From Pseudothermotoga thermarum DSM 5069 (GTDB taxonomy: Bacteria > Thermotogota > Thermotogae > Thermotogales > DSM-5069), in the NCBI RefSeq assembly GCF_000217815.1, contig NC_015707.1, positions 1,476,014-1,540,013 of the forward strand: DNA of 64,000 nucleotides, in the 5' to 3' direction. The stretch's first letter is position 1; the number at the start of each line of letters is the position of its first letter. The position numbers and the translations under genes were made by a program. The notes under the pieces are model-generated. The model was not told where the DNA came from. It ran no database searches and worked only from the letters and a program-made list of their open reading frames with translations. Positions 7,966-49,875 of the stretch are shown here, piece after piece.

Positions 7966-8865
7966 ATGGAGATTTTGCCAAAAAAAGTTGGTTTTTTGTT
8001 TTTGGTGCCTGCTCTATTGTTCATCTGCCTTTTTCTTCTGTTTCCATTCTTTTGGGTGATCGTGATAAGTTTCACCAATCGAGCACTCACCGGTCCAGCC
8101 GCACTTTCTCCTACGTTTGTAGGACTAAGGAACTATCTTCGATTGTTCAACTTTCAACGCTGGATGCGCCCAGGAGAATTTGGTAATGCCTTGAAAAATA
8201 CGGCGATTTTCGTCGTTGGTTCTGCAATTCTTGGGCAGGTTCCGTTGGGGTTAGGTATAGCTCTTTTGCTTCATAGATTTAAATGGAAAACAATTCGTGA
8301 AATTGTTTACACGCTTGCCATAGCTGCTTGGATTTTACCAGGTGTGCCTGTTGCGTTCGCCTGGATTGCCTTTTTGGATAGAGATTTTGGGACTTTGAAT
8401 GCCATTTTGAAATTCTTCAAAATAGGTCCAATAGATTGGTACTTTGAGCAGCCTCTTCTTGCAATAATTTTATTCAACATTTGGAGAGGAACGGCTTTTT
8501 CAATGCTTTTGTTTTCCGCAGCCCTCGGATCGATTCCGCCTTCTTACTGGGATATATCCGAAGTGATCGGAGCAACGGCTTGGCAAAGATTTAGAGACGT
8601 GATTTTTCCTTTGATCAAACCGCACATACTCACCGATTTGATTTTGGTCACACTTTGGACGTTCAACTCATTCACACCATATCTTATAACCGGCGGGGGA
8701 CCTTTGTTCAAAAGTGAGACAATTCCGATGTACACTTATCGAGAGGCTTTCAGATTTCTTGAGTTTGGAAGAGGAGCAAGTGCAGCCGTAGTAACGATGA
8801 CCATCAATTTGATTTTGGCAATAATTTACCTCACGTTTCTAAAGCGTCAGGAGGTGTACAAATGA
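7966..8865 (+). CDS. Sugar ABC transporter permease, MalF type
   Basis: A 299-residue inner-membrane protein with about six transmembrane helices (first at about 10-32). The inner-membrane EAA loop with its conserved glycine is represented by SEVIGATAWQRFRDVIFPLI near residue 200, which contacts the ATPase. The start at 7966 follows GGGAGGAAAGGCCA. It pairs with the next gene, whose ATG overlaps its stop by 4 bp, as usual for heterodimeric sugar permeases. Confidence 0.88.
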   Translation: MEILPKKVGFLFLVPALLFICLFLLFPFFWVIVISFTNRALTGPAALSPTFVGLRNYLRLFNFQRWMRPGEFGNALKNTAIFVVGSAILGQVPLGLGIALLLHRFKWKTIREIVYTLAIAAWILPGVPVAFAWIAFLDRDFGTLNAILKFFKIGPIDWYFEQPLLAIILFNIWRGTAFSMLLFSAALGSIPPSYWDISEVIGATAWQRFRDVIFPLIKPHILTDLILVTLWTFNSFTPYLITGGGPLFKSETIPMYTYREAFRFLEFGRGASAAVVTMTINLILAIIYLTFLKRQEVYK

Positions 8866-9692
8866 GGCGTTTGAAATCCTTTTTATCAAATTTGGCCCGA
8901 ATATTGCTGATAGTAATTTTGATCGCGTTCTTTTTGTTACCGCTCCTTTGGCTTTTCACTGCTCCGTTCAGTAGAGCTGCTACTTTGAGAATTTCACTTC
9001 CAACTAAACCTACTTTGAACAACTTTCGAGTAGTTTTATCAAATCCAATATCGTTTCGAGCACTGTTTGTAAACAGTCCAATAATAGCTGGCGGCGCAAT
9101 GATCGGAGTTACTTTGATAGCATCACTTGCAGCTTACGCTCTTTCCAGGATAAAAGTTCCTGGTCAAAGTTTGATAGTTTACATTTTGATATTATTCTCC
9201 GCTGTGGTTACTGGAACGGCTGCAATGGTTCCAATCTTTCTGCTTTTGTATTCCCTAAAGTTGATTGACACACACCTTGGGACTATACTCGTCTACATTG
9301 GTGGATTGTTACCAACTGGGATTTTCCTCATGCGAGGTTTTGTAGACAGTGTTCCGCGTTCCTACGAGGAAGCAGCTATTGTTAGTGGCGCAAAACCTTT
9401 GCAAATGTTTAGAGATGTTGTTATTCCTATCATAAGACCTGGAATGATGGTTGTTGCTGTGTGGGCTTTTGTTCAGTCTTGGGGAGATTTTCTAATCCCG
9501 ATGGTTTTAATTAGAAGTCCTTTGAAAATGCCGGCTCCGATTGCCATTTACACGTTTTACACCGAAGGTGGAACTCCGGTGCTAACTTTGGTTTCGGCGT
9601 ATTCTTTGATATACATGCTTCCAGCTATAGTACTTTATCTATTTGTGAATTGGAAATACGGATTCAGATTCTTTGGAGGGATAAAAAGATGA
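8862..9692 (+). CDS. Sugar ABC transporter permease, MalG type
   Basis: A 276-residue second permease subunit with six predicted helices. The EAA loop reads EEAAIVSGAKPLQMFRDVVI near residue 168. Start and stop both overlap neighbouring genes by 4 bp (ATGA), showing translational coupling with the first permease and with the ATPase. Together these form the channel for the sugar delivered by the 6517 binding protein. Confidence 0.88.
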   Translation: MRRLKSFLSNLARILLIVILIAFFLLPLLWLFTAPFSRAATLRISLPTKPTLNNFRVVLSNPISFRALFVNSPIIAGGAMIGVTLIASLAAYALSRIKVPGQSLIVYILILFSAVVTGTAAMVPIFLLLYSLKLIDTHLGTILVYIGGLLPTGIFLMRGFVDSVPRSYEEAAIVSGAKPLQMFRDVVIPIIRPGMMVVAVWAFVQSWGDFLIPMVLIRSPLKMPAPIAIYTFYTEGGTPVLTLVSAYSLIYMLPAIVLYLFVNWKYGFRFFGGIKR

Positions 9693-42246: not shown

Positions 42247-43800
42247 ATGGTGGATAGAAGAAAAACCTCTTCGGTGAAATGGGATATGATATTGAAACTC
42301 CACGGTGAGGACGTTCTGCCTTTGTGGATTGCGGACATGGACTTTGAAAGCTGTCCGGCGCTGGTTGAAGCGCTCAAGAAGAGGGCGGAACATGGTATTT
42401 TCGGCTACACTTTCAAAGATGAAGATTATTACAAAACGATAATGGATTGGTATCTGAAAAGATATGGTGTAAAGATTAAAAGAGAATGGATTGTGGATGG
42501 ACCGGGTGTTATACCGATGCTCGCACTGCTTTTAAACGCTTTGACTGAACCTGGCGATAAAGTGATGATCCAACCGCCGGTTTATCCACCTTTTTTCCGT
42601 TTGATCGCCTCAAACGGAAGGATAATCGTTGAAAACAGGTTGAAAAAAGATGGAATGTACTATACGATGGATTTTGAAGATTTGGAAAGCAAAATAGATG
42701 AGAAAACCAAGATGTTGATTCTTTGTAATCCACACAACCCAGTTGGAAGAGTTTGGAAAAAAGAAGAACTCGAAAGGTTGGTCGAGATAGTCAGAAAACA
42801 CAACCTTGTTCTTGTGAGCGATGAAATTCATGGTGACATCGTTTATACAGGGCATAAGTTTGTGAGTATTTTGAACTTCGGCTACGATAAAGCGATTGTC
42901 TTGAATTCAGCTGGAAAAACTTTCAACGTTCCAGGTTTGACAAATTCCTACGGTATAATAAAGGATGAACATTTGAGAAACATTTACAACGTTTGGCTAG
43001 CCAGGTTTGAATTGACAAACGTGAATATCTTTGGAATGGAGGCTTTGAAGGTCGCTTACAGTGAATGCGAACGCTGGGTGGACGAACTTCTTCAGATCCT
43101 TGAAAAAAACAGAAATTTCGCAGTTGATTTTATAAAAAAACAGATGCCACTTTTAGATTGCACCACTCCGGAAGGAACCTTCCTTTTGTGGATAGACTGC
43201 GGCAAGACAAAACTTGAGAATCCACAGAAATTCTTTTTGGAAAAGGCAAGGGTTTATTTGAACGATGGTAGTGCTTTTGGGGATCCTTTGTGTGTGAGAC
43301 TTAACTTTGCAACTTCGTTTGAGATTTTGTCCGAAGCTTTAAAAAGGATGAAAAAAGCCTACGATGAGCAGATGGAATTTTTGGTTTTAAGAAGCGATTC
43401 AAAAGAGTTTGAGAAATGTCTGAAAATCCGTGAAGAAGTTTTCGTGAAAGAACAAGGAATAGACAAAAGCCTCGAGGTAGATGGAAAAGACCAAGAGGCT
43501 TTGCACTATCTTTTAAAGCACTTTTCAATACCTGTTGCAACAGCTAGAAGTCGCAAGATTGAGGAAGACACCTACAAGATCGAAAGAGTCGCCGTTTTAA
43601 AAGAATACAGAAAGCTTGGTTATGGAAAAACGATCATGAACAAGATCGAAGAATATCTGATGCAAAAAGGCGCAAAAAAGTTTGTTTTAAATTCTCAACT
43701 TTGGATTGCTGGTTTTTATGAAAGACTTGGCTATGAAAAGGTGGGGGAAATCTTTGAGGAAGCCGGTATACCACATGTGAGGATGCAAAAAATGGTTTAA
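42247..43800 (+). CDS. PatB/MalY-type C-S lyase fused to a GNAT acetyltransferase
   Basis: A 517-residue protein with the ATG at 42247 after AAGGAGGAAAAGAGA. Residues 1-372 form a class I/II PLP aminotransferase-fold enzyme of the PatB (cystathionine beta-lyase-like) type: PLWIADMDFESCP near residue 23, LCNPHNPVGR near 160, SDEIHGDI near 193, and the PLP lysine K224 in NSAGKTFNVPG. Residues 376-517 form a GNAT domain with the acetyl-CoA motif YRKLGYGKTIMNKIEEY and final FYERLGYEKVG. The fusion suggests that an amine released or held by the lyase is acetylated. Substrate unknown. Confidence 0.85.
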   Translation: MVDRRKTSSVKWDMILKLHGEDVLPLWIADMDFESCPALVEALKKRAEHGIFGYTFKDEDYYKTIMDWYLKRYGVKIKREWIVDGPGVIPMLALLLNALTEPGDKVMIQPPVYPPFFRLIASNGRIIVENRLKKDGMYYTMDFEDLESKIDEKTKMLILCNPHNPVGRVWKKEELERLVEIVRKHNLVLVSDEIHGDIVYTGHKFVSILNFGYDKAIVLNSAGKTFNVPGLTNSYGIIKDEHLRNIYNVWLARFELTNVNIFGMEALKVAYSECERWVDELLQILEKNRNFAVDFIKKQMPLLDCTTPEGTFLLWIDCGKTKLENPQKFFLEKARVYLNDGSAFGDPLCVRLNFATSFEILSEALKRMKKAYDEQMEFLVLRSDSKEFEKCLKIREEVFVKEQGIDKSLEVDGKDQEALHYLLKHFSIPVATARSRKIEEDTYKIERVAVLKEYRKLGYGKTIMNKIEEYLMQKGAKKFVLNSQLWIAGFYERLGYEKVGEIFEEAGIPHVRMQKMV

Positions 43801-43840: not shown

Positions 43841-43870
43841 TTGACAAGATAATGTTTTGTATGTTATTTT
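43841..43870 (+). promoter_or_regulatory. Promoter of the opine/ATP-grasp/B12 operon
   Basis: A perfect -35 TTGACA (43841-43846) and a -10 TATTTT (43865-43870) with an 18-bp spacer. The opine dehydrogenase ATG lies 35 bases downstream. It indicates that the three-gene operon is transcribed separately from the lyase fusion. Confidence 0.6.
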
Positions 43871-43904: not shown

Positions 43905-44987
43905 ATGAAAATTTGCGTAATTGGCGCTGGAAATGGCGGGCAGGCTTTGGCTGCTTTTCTTGCTTTAAGAGGTCACGATGTGGCTTTGTACAACAGAAGC
44001 GAATGGAGAATTGCTCCAATAATAAAAACAAGGAAAATAAAAGTTGAAGGCGAAATCAACGCAACTGCACAGATTTCCTTTGCTACGACGGATATTGCAG
44101 AAGCCATGAAAGATAGAGAACTGATAATGGTTGTTTTACCCGCAAACGCTCACAGGGAAATTGCCACAAAGATGGCTCCGCATCTAAAGGATGGACAGGT
44201 TGTTGTTTTAAATCCAGGAAGAACAGCTGGCGCTTTAGAATTTTACAACGTTTTAAAGGAATTAAACGTTAAAAAGGATATCACTATAGCCGAAGCTCAG
44301 ACTTTCATATTCGCTTCGCGCATGTCGAACCCAGGCGTTGTCAGGATATTTCGCATCAAAAACGCTGTTCCAGTGGCTGCGTTGCCTTCGACTAAGAACC
44401 CTCAGCTTGAGAGGACTTTGATAAAGGTTATGCCTGAGTTTGAAATAGTCGAAAGCACTCTTTACACGAGTTTCAACAACATAGGTGCTGTTTTCCACCC
44501 CGCAACGATAATTTTAAACGCGGGATGGGTTGAGACGACTTTTGGAAAGTTTGAATTTTACTTTGAAGGTATCAGCAAATCTGTTGCAAAAGTGCTTGAA
44601 GCTATCGATTTTGAAAGATGTGAAATCGCAAGAAAATTTGGAATAGAGCCGATGACAGCAGTTCAATGGCTTGCTTACGCTTACGATGTCAGAGGCTCAG
44701 ATCTTTACGAGGCAATACACAAAAACGAAGGATACCGAGGAATACAGGCTCCGACAAGTCTTGATAATCGATACATAACCGAGGACGTTCCAACGAGTTT
44801 GGTCCCGCTTTCTGCCTTTGGAAAGCTTGTAAACGTCCCAACTCCAACGATAGATTCCATAATTCAAATTGCCTCCGTGATAATGGGGGTAGACTATTTC
44901 AAAGAGGGTAGAAACTTTGAAAGACTACACCTTGAAGGTAAAACTGTTGAGCAAGTTAAACGCATCATGGAAAGAGGTGAAGAATGA
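43905..44987 (+). CDS. Opine dehydrogenase family protein (octopine/nopaline type)
   Basis: About 360 residues. The Rossmann loop GAGNGGQALAAFLALRGHDV lies at about 7-26. The C-terminal helical domain carries NNIGAVFHPATIILN (about 195-209), where the histidine corresponds to the catalytic His of octopine dehydrogenase. These enzymes reductively join an amino acid to a 2-oxo acid with NAD(P)H, or run in reverse. AAAGGAGTGAAATTT precedes the ATG at 43905. The stop overlaps the ATG of the ATP-grasp gene by 4 bp. Confidence 0.82.
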   Translation: MKICVIGAGNGGQALAAFLALRGHDVALYNRSEWRIAPIIKTRKIKVEGEINATAQISFATTDIAEAMKDRELIMVVLPANAHREIATKMAPHLKDGQVVVLNPGRTAGALEFYNVLKELNVKKDITIAEAQTFIFASRMSNPGVVRIFRIKNAVPVAALPSTKNPQLERTLIKVMPEFEIVESTLYTSFNNIGAVFHPATIILNAGWVETTFGKFEFYFEGISKSVAKVLEAIDFERCEIARKFGIEPMTAVQWLAYAYDVRGSDLYEAIHKNEGYRGIQAPTSLDNRYITEDVPTSLVPLSAFGKLVNVPTPTIDSIIQIASVIMGVDYFKEGRNFERLHLEGKTVEQVKRIMERGEE

Positions 44988-45904
44988 TCAAGGTCGCAGT
45001 TGTTTTTGACATGGTTAACCTTGATGAAGAAAGAAAAAGAATGATTGACGCAGTTGCAAGTGCTTTGAGTAAAAAATTCGAGGTGGAAAAACTCCCGTTT
45101 GACGATGATTTTGTCAAAAAGGTCAAAAAATTCGACGCGGTTTTCAATTTGTCAACCGCGTACAAACAAATTCATGTTCCTGCGATTTTAGACGTTTTGA
45201 ACATACCATACACTGGTTCAGATGCGCTGGCTCATGCCCTTTGCATAGATAAGGTTATAACAAAGACGATCCTTGTTCAAAACAACGTTCCAACCCCAGA
45301 GTTTGTCGCCGTTGAGGTGGGACAGCTTCCACCGCAGATCGATTTTTACCCAGCCATAGTCAAACCTTCGAGGCAGGGAAGCGCAAAGGGAATCCATGCA
45401 GATTCGGTTGTTCACAACTACGACGAGCTTTGTAGAATTGTCAAAAGGGTTCACGAACAGTTCAACGAACCTGCTTTGGTTGAAAAGTTCATAGAAGGAA
45501 AGGAATTGAGCGTTGGCATCGTTGCTGGTGAAGTCCTTCCAATACTCGAGATAGATTTTTCAGAACTTGGAGAAGGTTTGGAAAGGTTTTATTCCTACAG
45601 GGTTAAACACTACTACGGGGATAAAACAAAATATTACTGCCCAGCAAGGATCGATGAAACTGTTAGGAAAAAGATAGAGTTTTACGCCAAAAGAGCTTTT
45701 GAAGCTTTGAGACTCAAAAACTACGCGAGGATGGATTTAAGACTCAAGGATGACGAGATTTACTTTCTTGAGGTCAACTCTTTGCCAATGCTCACACCAG
45801 GTTATTCTGACATTATCAAAATGGCCGAAGCAACTGGCTACAGCTACGATGAGCTTATACTCAAAATATTCGAAGACGGTGTGATGAAATGCTTTGGTAC
45901 TTGA
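44984..45904 (+). CDS. D-alanine-D-alanine ligase-like ATP-grasp enzyme
   Basis: A 306-residue protein. An N-terminal preATP-grasp fold precedes the ATP-grasp core: IPYTGSDALAHALCIDK (about 72-88), VKPSRQGSAKGIHA (about 125-138), VEKFIEGKELSVGI (about 165-178) and the metal site RMDLRL ... FLEVNSLPMLTPG (about 248-270). These resemble Ddl, but the setting, directly coupled to an opine dehydrogenase and a B12 protein, is not a cell-wall one. It probably ligates an amino acid or opine carboxylate to an amine. The substrate is unknown. Confidence 0.82.
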   Translation: MIKVAVVFDMVNLDEERKRMIDAVASALSKKFEVEKLPFDDDFVKKVKKFDAVFNLSTAYKQIHVPAILDVLNIPYTGSDALAHALCIDKVITKTILVQNNVPTPEFVAVEVGQLPPQIDFYPAIVKPSRQGSAKGIHADSVVHNYDELCRIVKRVHEQFNEPALVEKFIEGKELSVGIVAGEVLPILEIDFSELGEGLERFYSYRVKHYYGDKTKYYCPARIDETVRKKIEFYAKRAFEALRLKNYARMDLRLKDDEIYFLEVNSLPMLTPGYSDIIKMAEATGYSYDELILKIFEDGVMKCFGT

Positions 45905-45925
45905 AACTTTTTGGAGGTAATTTTT

Positions 45926-47815
45926 ATGTCAAACAAGATAAAGTACGGTTTTGTAAAACCTTACAACGATGCCCACACACTTGGTTTGACAACGGTTGCA
46001 GAACTTTTGAAAGATTGCGGCTACGATGTGTTGATAGCCGATGAGAAGGTTTCAAAGGCGATTACAGATTACAAAGATGAAAGGCAAAGAAAAGTTGTAA
46101 CCGAATGGATCAGGCAAAATGGTGTCACAAGGGTTGGTTTTAGTTACAGACTAGATCCAATTGATGCTTTCAACATGGTCAGCTACATTATCTTGCAGAT
46201 GAAAAAAGAAAGGATGTTCAAGTTTCAAGGTGGCCAAGTTGAACTTGTCTTTTTCGGTGGGCTTCCTAAGGCCTGCGAACTGATAGAAAAGGAATTTGAA
46301 GGATTGGTTATCACTTTCAAAGGAGCCGAGTCTGCAAGTGAAACTTTGTTGAAAATGGGTGTTCCTCCTTCAAAAATATCGAAGGATATCGTTGAGGCTG
46401 CGAAATACGATGAGATGCTTTTGCAGTTTGGAAAAGAAGTTATCGATTCACAGGAGTATTTGAAGTATCCACCGCCGAACAGGGCTACCTACGAAGAATT
46501 TGGCACAAAGAAAGACACGGTTGTGAAAAGACTCGATGCAAACATGAAAGACAACTTTGAACCGTTGATAAGAGCCCACGTTGGACCATATCGAGCCGAG
46601 CTGAAGCGAGAAGAAGCGGTGCAAGAATTCATTTCTTGGTGTAAGATTCTTGCAAAATCGAATTATTTGGACATACTCTCCATAGGTACTTCACAACTTA
46701 CACAGTCGAATTTCGGTGAAGATTGGACGGGTTTACCAAACGGTGGAGGAGTTCCCATAAACTCACCTGAGGAGTTCAGGATGGTTTGGGAAGCTTCAAG
46801 ACCGATGCTTGTGAGAACTTATGCGGGAACAAAGAATATCCTGTGGCTTGCGAAAATGTACGAAGAAACTATAAACATATGCTGGCATGCTCTTTCGCTT
46901 TGGTGGTTCAACAAATTGGACGGAAGAGGACCATATGATCTTTACACGAATTTGAAAGAACACATTGAAACTATCAAATACATCGCAACGACGAACAAAC
47001 CTTTTGAAGCGAACGTTCCGCACCATTTTGCATTCAGGGGAGCTGACGACGTAACGTATATCGTTTCGGCATACCTTTCCGCAAAACTTGCAAAAAAGCT
47101 TGGAATAAAAACCTTCATCCTCCAGAACATGCTCAACACTCCAAGATCAACTTGGGGAGTACAGGACTTGGCAAAATCTAGGGCGATGCTCAAACTTGTT
47201 AGAACCTTGGAGGATGAAAATTTCAGGGTAATACTTCAACCACGAGCAGGACTTGATTATTTCAAACCAGACCTTTACGAAGCGAAGATACAACTTGCTG
47301 CTGTAACAGCGTTGATGGATGACATAGAACCTTACAACGAGTCAAGTCCACCGATAATACACGTCGTAAGCTATTCTGAAGCAGTTCACCTTGCAACACC
47401 GGATGTCATAATTGAAAGCATTCAGATAACACATCATGCACTTCAAAAGTACAGAGAACTTAAACGAAAGGGAAAAGTCGACGACATGGGAAAGAACGAG
47501 GATGTAAAACAAAGAATGGAAGAACTTTACAACGACGCTGTAAAGTTGATAAACGCAGTTGAAGAAATCATTCCGGATCTTTACACACCTGAGGGCTTTT
47601 ACAAAGTCTTTGCAGCGGGATTTTTGCCCGTACCGTATCTTTGGCTGGAGGTTGAAGAGTTCAAGCACGCCAAAAATTGGAAAACAAAGTTTGTAAAAGG
47701 CGGCGTGAAAGTGGTTGACGACGAAGGCAAACCAATGCCGATCGAAAAGAGAATAGAAATCGCAAAAAGTCATCTGCCGGATGCCGAGTACAACTTGAAA
47801 AATCTAAGCCTTTAG
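45926..47815 (+). CDS. B12-binding-domain protein with a mutase-like C-terminal region
   Basis: A 629-residue protein with the ATG at 45926 after TTGGAGGTAATTTTT. The N-terminus has the base-off/His-on cobalamin motif DAHTLG (D15-x-H17-x-x-G20), then GFSYRLDP near 71 in the place of SxL, and FFGGLPKA with the GG near 111. Residues about 200-629 look like an alpha/beta barrel of the glutamate-mutase/aminomutase kind (VPHHFAFRGADDVTYI, LQPRAGLDYFKPDLYEAK). The layout suggests an adenosylcobalamin-dependent carbon-skeleton or amino mutase in one chain. I cannot assign the reaction. It is 21 bp after the ATP-grasp gene. Confidence 0.68.
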   Translation: MSNKIKYGFVKPYNDAHTLGLTTVAELLKDCGYDVLIADEKVSKAITDYKDERQRKVVTEWIRQNGVTRVGFSYRLDPIDAFNMVSYIILQMKKERMFKFQGGQVELVFFGGLPKACELIEKEFEGLVITFKGAESASETLLKMGVPPSKISKDIVEAAKYDEMLLQFGKEVIDSQEYLKYPPPNRATYEEFGTKKDTVVKRLDANMKDNFEPLIRAHVGPYRAELKREEAVQEFISWCKILAKSNYLDILSIGTSQLTQSNFGEDWTGLPNGGGVPINSPEEFRMVWEASRPMLVRTYAGTKNILWLAKMYEETINICWHALSLWWFNKLDGRGPYDLYTNLKEHIETIKYIATTNKPFEANVPHHFAFRGADDVTYIVSAYLSAKLAKKLGIKTFILQNMLNTPRSTWGVQDLAKSRAMLKLVRTLEDENFRVILQPRAGLDYFKPDLYEAKIQLAAVTALMDDIEPYNESSPPIIHVVSYSEAVHLATPDVIIESIQITHHALQKYRELKRKGKVDDMGKNEDVKQRMEELYNDAVKLINAVEEIIPDLYTPEGFYKVFAAGFLPVPYLWLEVEEFKHAKNWKTKFVKGGVKVVDDEGKPMPIEKRIEIAKSHLPDAEYNLKNLSL

Positions 47816-48797: not shown

Positions 48798-48825
48798 AGC
48801 GCCGGTGCAATGCCGGCGCTTTTTA
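48798..48825 (+). terminator. Terminator of the small secreted protein gene
   Basis: AGCGCCGG, loop TGCAATG, CCGGCGCT form an 8-bp stem followed by TTTTT. It abuts the end of the convergent bpsA gene. Confidence 0.85.
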
Positions 48826-49875
48826 TGTTGTAGAGCTTTCGTCATCGTCATAAAGTTCTTGGTTTGCGGTAACTTCTTCTTTGTAACCTTTTGAGCTTTC
48901 AACTGTTTGAATTCTAAAGAAATAACTTTTGTACCAGTTATATTCAGGGACGCTTTTGACTGGTACAAGTTTCCATCCCCTGGTTTGCTGAATGTAATCC
49001 CAGTTGACATATTCGTTGAAGTTTCTGATTATGTCAGTTATCACAACCTGAAATTCTTCTATGAGAATTCTTTGGATCTTTTGCCACTTGTCCACGGAAC
49101 TTTCCATTTTTGTCAAGCCAAAATATCCCGCACATCCAGGACCTTTCAACATTGCAATCCCTCTTCCTATGAAAGCCCTTATTGCGTCAATAGTCTCTGG
49201 TGGATCAGTTATGAAAGTATCGAACTTTTTTGAAAATTCTTCCGGTAGAGGTTTTCTAAGATCAAAGGTCAATATTTCAACATTTGTACATCCAAGCTTT
49301 TCTGCGACTCTTTCTATAAATCTTGTAAGCCTTGAGTCTATGTCGAGAACGGAAATTTTCTTTGGGAGTTTTGACAGCATCAAAGCAACACTTGTGAGAT
49401 CGTCATCACCCAAAACGAAGATTTCTTTGTTTTCAACATCACCACGCGAATGCATGAACACAACCCTGGCCACGGTCGTTTCAGGCGTTACATAAGCTTG
49501 GTCAAATTCATGCTTTGGTTCAGGTCTATCTTTCGCAATTTCCGTGAATCTTCTAAGAAGGTCTTTAAATTCATCAAGATCAACGGTTTTTCCTTTACAA
49601 TGCTTACAAGTAAAATCTTTCTTGCTCGTTATTCTAAATTCTTTAAGCAGTTCCTTGCCTTTCTTGGTCAATTCAATCCCTTCGTTCAACTTTACATATC
49701 CTTTTTCTGAAAGAACGTTGATAACGGCCATAACAAGAGGGAAGGGTTCTTCACTTAAATCTGCTATTTTCCAAGGATCATTCGAAGTGCAAAGAGCGCT
49801 CAAAATATTTTCAACTTTTCTTTCATAAATAGGTATACTGGTTCTTTGCCTAACTCTTTCTACAATCTCTCTCAT
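48823..49875 (-). CDS. bpsA: BpsA, N4-bis(aminopropyl)spermidine synthase
   Basis: A 350-residue branched-chain polyamine synthase (DUF43 family). The N-terminal winged-helix domain (about 20-80) is followed by a CxxC pair (C90, C93). The Rossmann domain then carries the family motifs GDDDLTS (about 156-162), VLDIDSRLTRFI and DPPE (about 224-227). It adds aminopropyl groups from decarboxylated S-adenosylmethionine to a secondary amine of spermidine, making branched polyamines that protect nucleic acids in thermophiles. A spermidine-synthase-family gene is 5 kb away at 54143. AAAGGAGGGATGCAGA precedes the ATG. Confidence 0.88.
   Translation of the reverse strand: MREIVERVRQRTSIPIYERKVENILSALCTSNDPWKIADLSEEPFPLVMAVINVLSEKGYVKLNEGIELTKKGKELLKEFRITSKKDFTCKHCKGKTVDLDEFKDLLRRFTEIAKDRPEPKHEFDQAYVTPETTVARVVFMHSRGDVENKEIFVLGDDDLTSVALMLSKLPKKISVLDIDSRLTRFIERVAEKLGCTNVEILTFDLRKPLPEEFSKKFDTFITDPPETIDAIRAFIGRGIAMLKGPGCAGYFGLTKMESSVDKWQKIQRILIEEFQVVITDIIRNFNEYVNWDYIQQTRGWKLVPVKSVPEYNWYKSYFFRIQTVESSKGYKEEVTANQELYDDDESSTT

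Follow-up and report, generated by a model that had tools for sequence, protein, structure and literature searches.

In 2009, Zhang, Rodionov, Gelfand and Gladyshev predicted a family of B12 proteins whose genes they described as 'always adjacent' to that of an octopine/nopaline dehydrogenase; D-Ala:D-Ala ligase and asparagine synthase were noted close by, and Clostridia and Thermotogae were among the hosts (PMC2667541). That paper, which covered 11 proteins, gives no glutamate-mutase assignment, substrate or regulation, and no later functional study of the family was found in the literature searched. Here we describe an operon of the heat-loving bacterium Pseudothermotoga thermarum DSM 5069 in which genes for an opine dehydrogenase (ODH), an ATP-grasp ligase (DDL) and such a B12 protein are packed together. 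It lies in a stretch of 64,000 nucleotides, called the window below, that corresponds to positions 1,476,014-1,540,013 of the complete 2,039,943-bp genome of this member of the Thermotogota. We see about an even chance that the operon is a B12-dependent biosynthetic module for an amide-capped opine, probably an osmolyte. This reading starts from gene association, fold, signature residues and riboswitch placement, which were observed directly, and extends them to a substrate, a product and an osmolyte role that we infer.

The closest described systems differ for the individual components. Glutamate mutase (GlmS + GlmE, EC 5.4.99.1) grips its substrate through R66, R100 and R149, the 'arginine claw' (PMC10947579). 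For ODH, the counterparts are ArODH/CENDH of Arthrobacter 1C (PDB 1BG6) and the hot-spring mODHs. According to Telek et al. (2024; PMC10787698), the mODHs nearest to ArODH use pyruvate and L-Asp or L-Glu; Arg111 and Gly198 set this acidic preference (ArODH has Ala and Asn there), the same pair switches ODHs between Phe and Asp, and Arg at position 35 accompanies the use of NADPH. DDL is closest to D-alanine-D-alanine ligase (Ddl/VanA). With respect to regulation, cyclic di-AMP (c-di-AMP) is a salt-stress signal. Genes of osmotic adaptation and of the cell wall are under riboswitches for it, one of which shuts off synthesis of a beta-lysine osmolyte precursor in Dehalobacter (PMC9337991).

The genes and domains of the operon, in coordinates of the window, are as follows:

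43905-44987, + strand: ODH, opine dehydrogenase of the CENDH/ArODH class (360 aa; PF02317 and profile evidence)
44984-45904, + strand: DDL, putative D-Ala-D-Ala-ligase-like ATP-grasp amide ligase (306 aa; Dala_Dala_lig_C, E = 3e-33)
45926-47815, + strand: B12 protein, 'long form', single-chain and glutamate-mutase-like (629 aa; fold and profile evidence)
45926-46375, + strand: N-terminal B12-binding domain of this protein (Pfam B12-binding, E = 6e-4; D15-A-H17-T-L-G20, S73-Y-R-L76, G111-G112)
46508-47620, + strand: glutamate-mutase-E-like barrel of this protein (residues ~195-565; AlphaFold/Foldseek, profile-profile comparison, PF06368 on homologues)

The start of DDL overlaps the stop of ODH by 4 bp (ATGA), and a 21-bp gap separates DDL from the B12 gene, whose start is preceded by GGAGG. 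The tight operon proposed in the first-pass annotation of this DNA was thus found exactly as described.

A search with the sequence of the B12 protein retrieved full-length relatives from Firmicutes (60-71% identical) and relatives of ~550 aa from most Thermotogota (32-40% identical). In an alignment-based search, the family was present in 64 of 103 Thermotogota genomes and in 86 of 398 genomes of the clostridial phylum. We compared 133 neighbourhoods of B12 genes from Thermotogota and Clostridia. ODH was located on the same strand within two genes of the B12 gene in 123 of these loci, and in 118 it was immediately upstream, mostly overlapping or nearly so. DDL lay within three genes of the B12 gene in 49 of the 133 loci, and an AsnB-like gene was found close to the ODH-B12 pair in 13 other loci; ODH, B12, DDL and AsnB are the only recurrent partners. 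By this context the proteins belong to the family of Zhang et al. (2009), with which they share the B12-binding N-terminus, the neighbouring dehydrogenase and the ligase or asparagine synthase nearby; the likeness is drawn from the published description, and the window protein is a long, Firmicutes-type form in a native Thermotogota operon.

The gene order varies: ODH-B12-DDL and DDL-ODH-B12 both occur, and ODH-DDL-B12 was seen in the window only. A non-adjacent DDL is often located at a distant locus of the same genome. DDL was present in 54 of 64 pair-positive versus 2 of 39 pair-negative Thermotogota genomes, and in 30 of 86 versus 3 of 312 genomes of the clostridial phylum, counts that ignore shared ancestry. 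The trees of ODH and the B12 protein correlate (r = 0.74 without the window, 0 of 999 permutations). Because the same genes neighbour each other in several orders in two phyla, their clustering is far from chance. The trio, initially taken as a functional unit from the window alone, is thus conserved across genomes of these two phyla, and its genes are not scattered independently in relatives.

Several other neighbours were rejected as partners. DapL genes, which a script had labelled PatB-like, were recognized by eye as aminotransferases and discarded; UPF0047 and glycerate-kinase genes occur in one Thermotogota lineage only and were judged to reflect local synteny; and a beta-lactam-synthetase-like role for AsnB neighbours without an N-terminal Cys was dropped, as most clostridial copies keep this Cys. 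Some loci deviate in structure. Long-form B12 genes of Tissierellia/Clostridium in L016, L017, L019 and L020 have no adjacent ODH, some of them being near a contig end. In L135, the B12 gene is immediately preceded by two tandem ODH genes and followed first by a MutL-like and then by a MurD-like gene. A possible fused variant, a protein of 1214-1245 aa containing a region of the B12 family, is encoded in L063 (443-5383; G219) and in G188, and in L063 it is preceded by a divergent 413-aa ODH-like gene.

To look for regulatory RNAs, 57 clostridial loci (760 kb) and 14 Thermotogota loci, the window included, were scanned with Rfam. The clostridial loci contained 31 c-di-AMP riboswitches (RF00379, 64-115 bits), all of which head an ODH-B12 module or, once, its AsnB neighbour (L112). 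Twenty-nine of the 31 precede the module's first gene by less than 700 bp, with nothing in between, and the riboswitch of L048 is likewise upstream of the module except for a small dubious open reading frame in between. Altogether, 29 of the 57 clostridial loci carry a c-di-AMP riboswitch just upstream of the module, and in L060, L131 and L140 it precedes DDL in a DDL-ODH-B12 operon. In L114, tandem c-di-AMP riboswitches (8549-8675 and 8815-8938) are present ahead of the ODH-B12 operon, and the c-di-AMP riboswitch of L112 (11541-11706) belongs to the AsnB-like gene close to its operon. The same riboswitch class controls ablA in the N-acetyl-beta-lysine system (PMC9337991), which differs in its enzymes and presumably in its solute; the riboswitch is also absent from the Thermotogota versions tested. 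Since c-di-AMP riboswitches head the clostridial operons, biosynthesis, probably of an osmolyte, is favoured over degradation. Of the initial proposal, a new route for either making or degrading an opine-like conjugate, we therefore retain the conjugate and its making, whereas degradation is less favoured.

The most specific substrate clue available is found in ODH. The protein matches PF02317 (E = 2e-49) and CENDH/1BG6 (E = 3e-79), and the family profile matches CENDH/ArODH (1BG6) over its full length (5e-117). Its N-terminal GAGNGG fits the Rossmann motif GxGxxG, and the catalytic residues His198 and Asp294 as well as the key Trp255 are present in 122 of 122 homologues, so that ODH shares fold, His-Asp dyad and Trp with ArODH. 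At the positions given as 111, 198 and 35 in the mODH study, the window protein has R106, G194 and R31, which are conserved in 122, 119 and 110 of the 122 homologues, respectively; the Arg111/Gly198 signature and the Arg at position 35 are thus shared with the mODHs. ODH is therefore predicted to condense a keto acid with an L-amino acid to an opine, and the R106/G194 signature makes pyruvate and an acidic amino acid the most likely partners. ArODH/CENDH and the mODHs differ from ODH in that the accessible part of PMC10787698 contains no link to a B12 protein.

A phmmer comparison of the 629-aa B12 protein with PDB sequences gave no match, so relatives were sought with alignment profiles and by comparison of folds. 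The DAHTLG motif, recognized from the start as a cobalamin signature, is formed by residues 15-20 within the B12 domain, and its His is 98% conserved in 127 homologues. Together with SYRL and GG, it completes the B12-domain signatures DxHxxG, SxL and GG. On a homologue the Pfam B12-binding domain was matched with E = 1e-8, and the family profile matches solved B12 domains at E ~1e-7. The best PDB match of the AlphaFold model (pLDDT 82, pTM 0.85) in Foldseek was the glutamate mutase E chain (6h9e_B/1cb7_B, E = 3e-10), with the next unrelated structure at 7e-5, which bears out the mutase-like barrel of the first-pass annotation; the fold search gave no structural match that argues against cobalamin binding. 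Profile-profile alignment by hhalign extended over the whole barrel (E = 1e-6, 349-422 columns), and PF06368 matched family members at 1e-4 to 1e-7, in some cases above the Pfam cut-off. True GlmE genes score near 1e-230 on PF06368 and are a family apart, encoded in clostridial genomes that also carry this one. The B12 domain and the barrel fold, with homology along the whole barrel, are thus shared with glutamate mutase, but the window protein is only 20% identical and, instead of separate sigma and epsilon subunits, has one chain in which the B12 domain comes first. Lysine 5,6-aminomutase, the second structure suggested for comparison, was rejected as a relative of the barrel: no Pfam aminomutase domain was matched, no aminomutase was among the best fold hits, and only the B12 domain resembles that of lysine 5,6-/ornithine 4,5-aminomutase, whose barrel, with its lysine region for pyridoxal phosphate (PLP), was not matched. 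Based on these profiles and the model, we conclude that the B12 protein is a putative one-chain carbon-skeleton mutase of the glutamate-mutase type that depends on adenosylcobalamin.

The active site appears to be rebuilt. The claw residues R66, R100 and R149 align to H218, Q260 and Y299, respectively (stable in six hhalign settings), each of which is at least 99% conserved in 127 members. The invariant residues of the barrel are R216, H218, Q257, Q260, R297, Y299, R334, E361, R371, R440 and E485, and the whole protein contains seven invariant arginines (R75, R202, R216, R297, R334, R371 and R440). E328 of the glutamate mutase of L145, which we take to be the equivalent of the adenosine-binding E330 of the C. 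cochlearium enzyme, aligns to the invariant E485. With each arginine of the claw exchanged for a different invariant residue, the substrate is probably not free glutamate held in the customary way, and a larger polycarboxylate may take its place; with the claw lost and seven invariant arginines kept, a bulkier polycarboxylate would suit the site.

A MutL-like reactivase, recognized by eye, adjoins the ODH-B12 pair in L108, L116, L120 and L135, another feature shared with glutamate mutase. MutL was rejected as an obligatory partner, since PF13941 is absent from the window genome and its whole family, which carry the pair. The window genome encodes a corrinoid adenosyltransferase (CobA/BtuR). 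It also contains a methylmalonyl-CoA-mutase-like pair (L160, G000:C1 ~889,800-893,300), composed of a 569-aa large subunit and an adjacent 138-aa B12 subunit.

By its sequence DDL is clearly a member of the Ddl superfamily. It shares the ATP-grasp fold with Ddl/VanA, and Lys, Arg, Asn and Ser of the acceptor side align. No such agreement was seen in the N-terminal region, where Ddl binds its first D-Ala, and PF01820, the N-terminal domain of Ddl, had no match in DDL. As the protein moreover scores below every Ddl family cut-off (173 bits versus 243 for PRK01372), its identity as a true D-Ala-D-Ala ligase was rejected. A more ordinary Ddl-type gene is located elsewhere in the genome (1,792,354-1,793,184).

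The window operon differs from those of its relatives in the origin of one gene. ODH and DDL group with their own family in trees, ODH being 84% identical to that of L032, whereas the B12 protein groups with Firmicutes (71% identity to L013, 31% to L032). The relatives have a short-form B12 gene between ODH and DDL; in the window, a long-form gene follows DDL. The B12 gene thus seems to be a Firmicutes-type import that replaced the native mutase while ODH and DDL were kept. Such an import beside native genes suggests that the long and short B12 forms are interchangeable and do the same job; a foreign homologue in a native operon further suggests that the three gene products are linked via metabolites rather than by specific protein contact.

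The route would start with the reductive condensation of pyruvate and an acidic L-amino acid of the Asp/Glu type by ODH with NADPH, as judged from homology and specificity residues, to a tricarboxylate opine of the N-(1-carboxyethyl) amino acid type. Based on fold and profile homology, the B12 protein with adenosylcobalamin would catalyze a glutamate-mutase-type rearrangement of the carbon skeleton, either of the opine itself or of the acidic amino acid prior to condensation. DDL might then convert a carboxylate to an amide and so lower the charge, a step for which an AsnB-like enzyme may replace it in some other bacteria. Both the mutase and the ligase activity are predicted. An opine-like conjugate is most likely an intermediate, and the end product would be a polar metabolite of low charge, compatible with osmotic control. 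Because the clostridial versions are very often under c-di-AMP riboswitches, use as an osmolyte (compatible solute) is most likely. The full scheme, a c-di-AMP-controlled, B12-dependent route from pyruvate and an acidic amino acid via an opine-type polycarboxylate, rearranged by a new mutase and amide-capped, to a new compatible solute, is put forward tentatively, at somewhat less than an even chance.

Several observations weigh against this biosynthetic reading. Ten Thermotogota genomes carry the ODH-B12 pair without DDL, a few long-form B12 loci lack an adjacent ODH, and the c-di-AMP riboswitch was not found in the window or the 13 other Thermotogota loci. The alignment of the long forms alone gave a weak match to glutamate mutase (E = 0.05), the AlphaFold barrel has loops of low confidence and the fold match a high rmsd. 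The nearest characterized ODHs were tested in vitro only and are likened here by published positions. Finally, c-di-AMP also governs cell-wall genes, and some loci adjoin MurD-like or polysaccharide genes.

The last point would fit a modification of the cell envelope, in which the module would supply a rare amino acid or opine for attachment to peptidoglycan or to a polysaccharide of the surface, the Ddl-like and AsnB-like enzymes would act on envelope precursors, and control by c-di-AMP would reflect wall homeostasis. The pairs of L013, L046 and L132 sit inside surface-polysaccharide gene clusters, a nucleotide-sugar dehydrogenase gene precedes ODH in L039, L044 and L087, MurD-like genes follow in L135 and L141, DDL falls within the D-Ala-D-Ala ligase superfamily, and c-di-AMP riboswitches control cell-wall remodelling genes too (PMC9337991). 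However, envelope genes are absent from the operon in most loci, ODH, B12, DDL and AsnB alone recur as partners, and DDL, below the Ddl cut-offs, has no detectable N-terminal substrate domain, and we regard this explanation as unlikely.

Opine dehydrogenases are reversible in vitro, and the mutase and ODH could also run degradatively in amino-acid catabolism, fermenting an opine or an acidic amino acid in a manner similar to the methylaspartate route of glutamate fermentation. The fold kinship of the B12 protein to glutamate mutase and the anaerobic fermentative lifestyle of the hosts are in line with this. Methylaspartase, mesaconase, thiolase or transporter genes do not recur beside the pair, though, an ATP-consuming ligase and a c-di-AMP riboswitch fit poorly, and true glutamate mutase is already present as a family of its own in the same clostridial genomes, which makes catabolism quite improbable.

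Very improbable is a logic as in pyrrolysine synthesis, where PylB, PylC and PylD act as mutase, ATP-grasp ligase and dehydrogenase, with the mutase yielding a branched amino acid, the ATP-grasp enzyme joining a second one and the dehydrogenase acting on the conjugate to give a dipeptide-like metabolite or cofactor: the three kinds of reaction (mutase, ATP-grasp ligase, CH-NH dehydrogenase) are the same, and in L013 the ATP-grasp partner of the pair resembles PylC (PylC-like_N, E = 5e-5) and not Ddl, but the enzymes belong to other families, the ODH signature predicts condensation of pyruvate with an acidic amino acid, and neither the changing order of the genes nor an optional DDL calls for such a scheme.

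Three further features flank the operon:

43841-43870, + strand: candidate sigma-70-like promoter (TTGACA at 43841-43846, 18 nt, TATTTT, with TG before the second hexamer)
42247-43800, + strand: fusion of a PatB-type C-S lyase (TIGR04350, 421 bits) with GNAT, upstream of ODH and judged to be outside the module
48823-49875, - strand: 350-aa protein resembling, by eye, the branched-chain polyamine synthase BpsA

The TTGACA match, initially assigned as the operon's own promoter, is present and has the top promoter-like score of the region. A promoter ahead of ODH is plausible but unproven, because such matches are no commoner than in shuffled DNA (13 sites versus 10.4 +/- 4.1). An Rfam scan of the whole window matched no family, including the cobalamin and c-di-AMP riboswitches. 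The PLP lyase-acetyltransferase fusion is indeed present directly upstream; as it is not beside ODH in the nearest relatives, where a divergent, unrelated gene takes this place, it is not a conserved partner and was rejected as a fourth member.

The first-pass annotation knew of no described pathway using these genes together; their association was already predicted in 2009 (PMC2667541), but a pathway is indeed not known. Measured against the literature searched, the additions made here are the fold and the lost arginine claw of the B12 protein, the specificity signature of ODH, the gene replacement inside the operon and the riboswitch link, the last with the reservation that older ydaO riboswitch papers might list these genes. 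In that literature the B12 family predicted in 2009 is still without a known reaction, and the ODH signature, the glutamate-mutase fold with its rebuilt active site and the riboswitch together narrow its function to a few candidate substrates and a single physiological test. If true, the proposed route would comprise a new adenosylcobalamin mutase reaction, give bacterial acidic-amino-acid opine dehydrogenases a physiological role and establish a new class of osmolytes tied to c-di-AMP and B12 supply.

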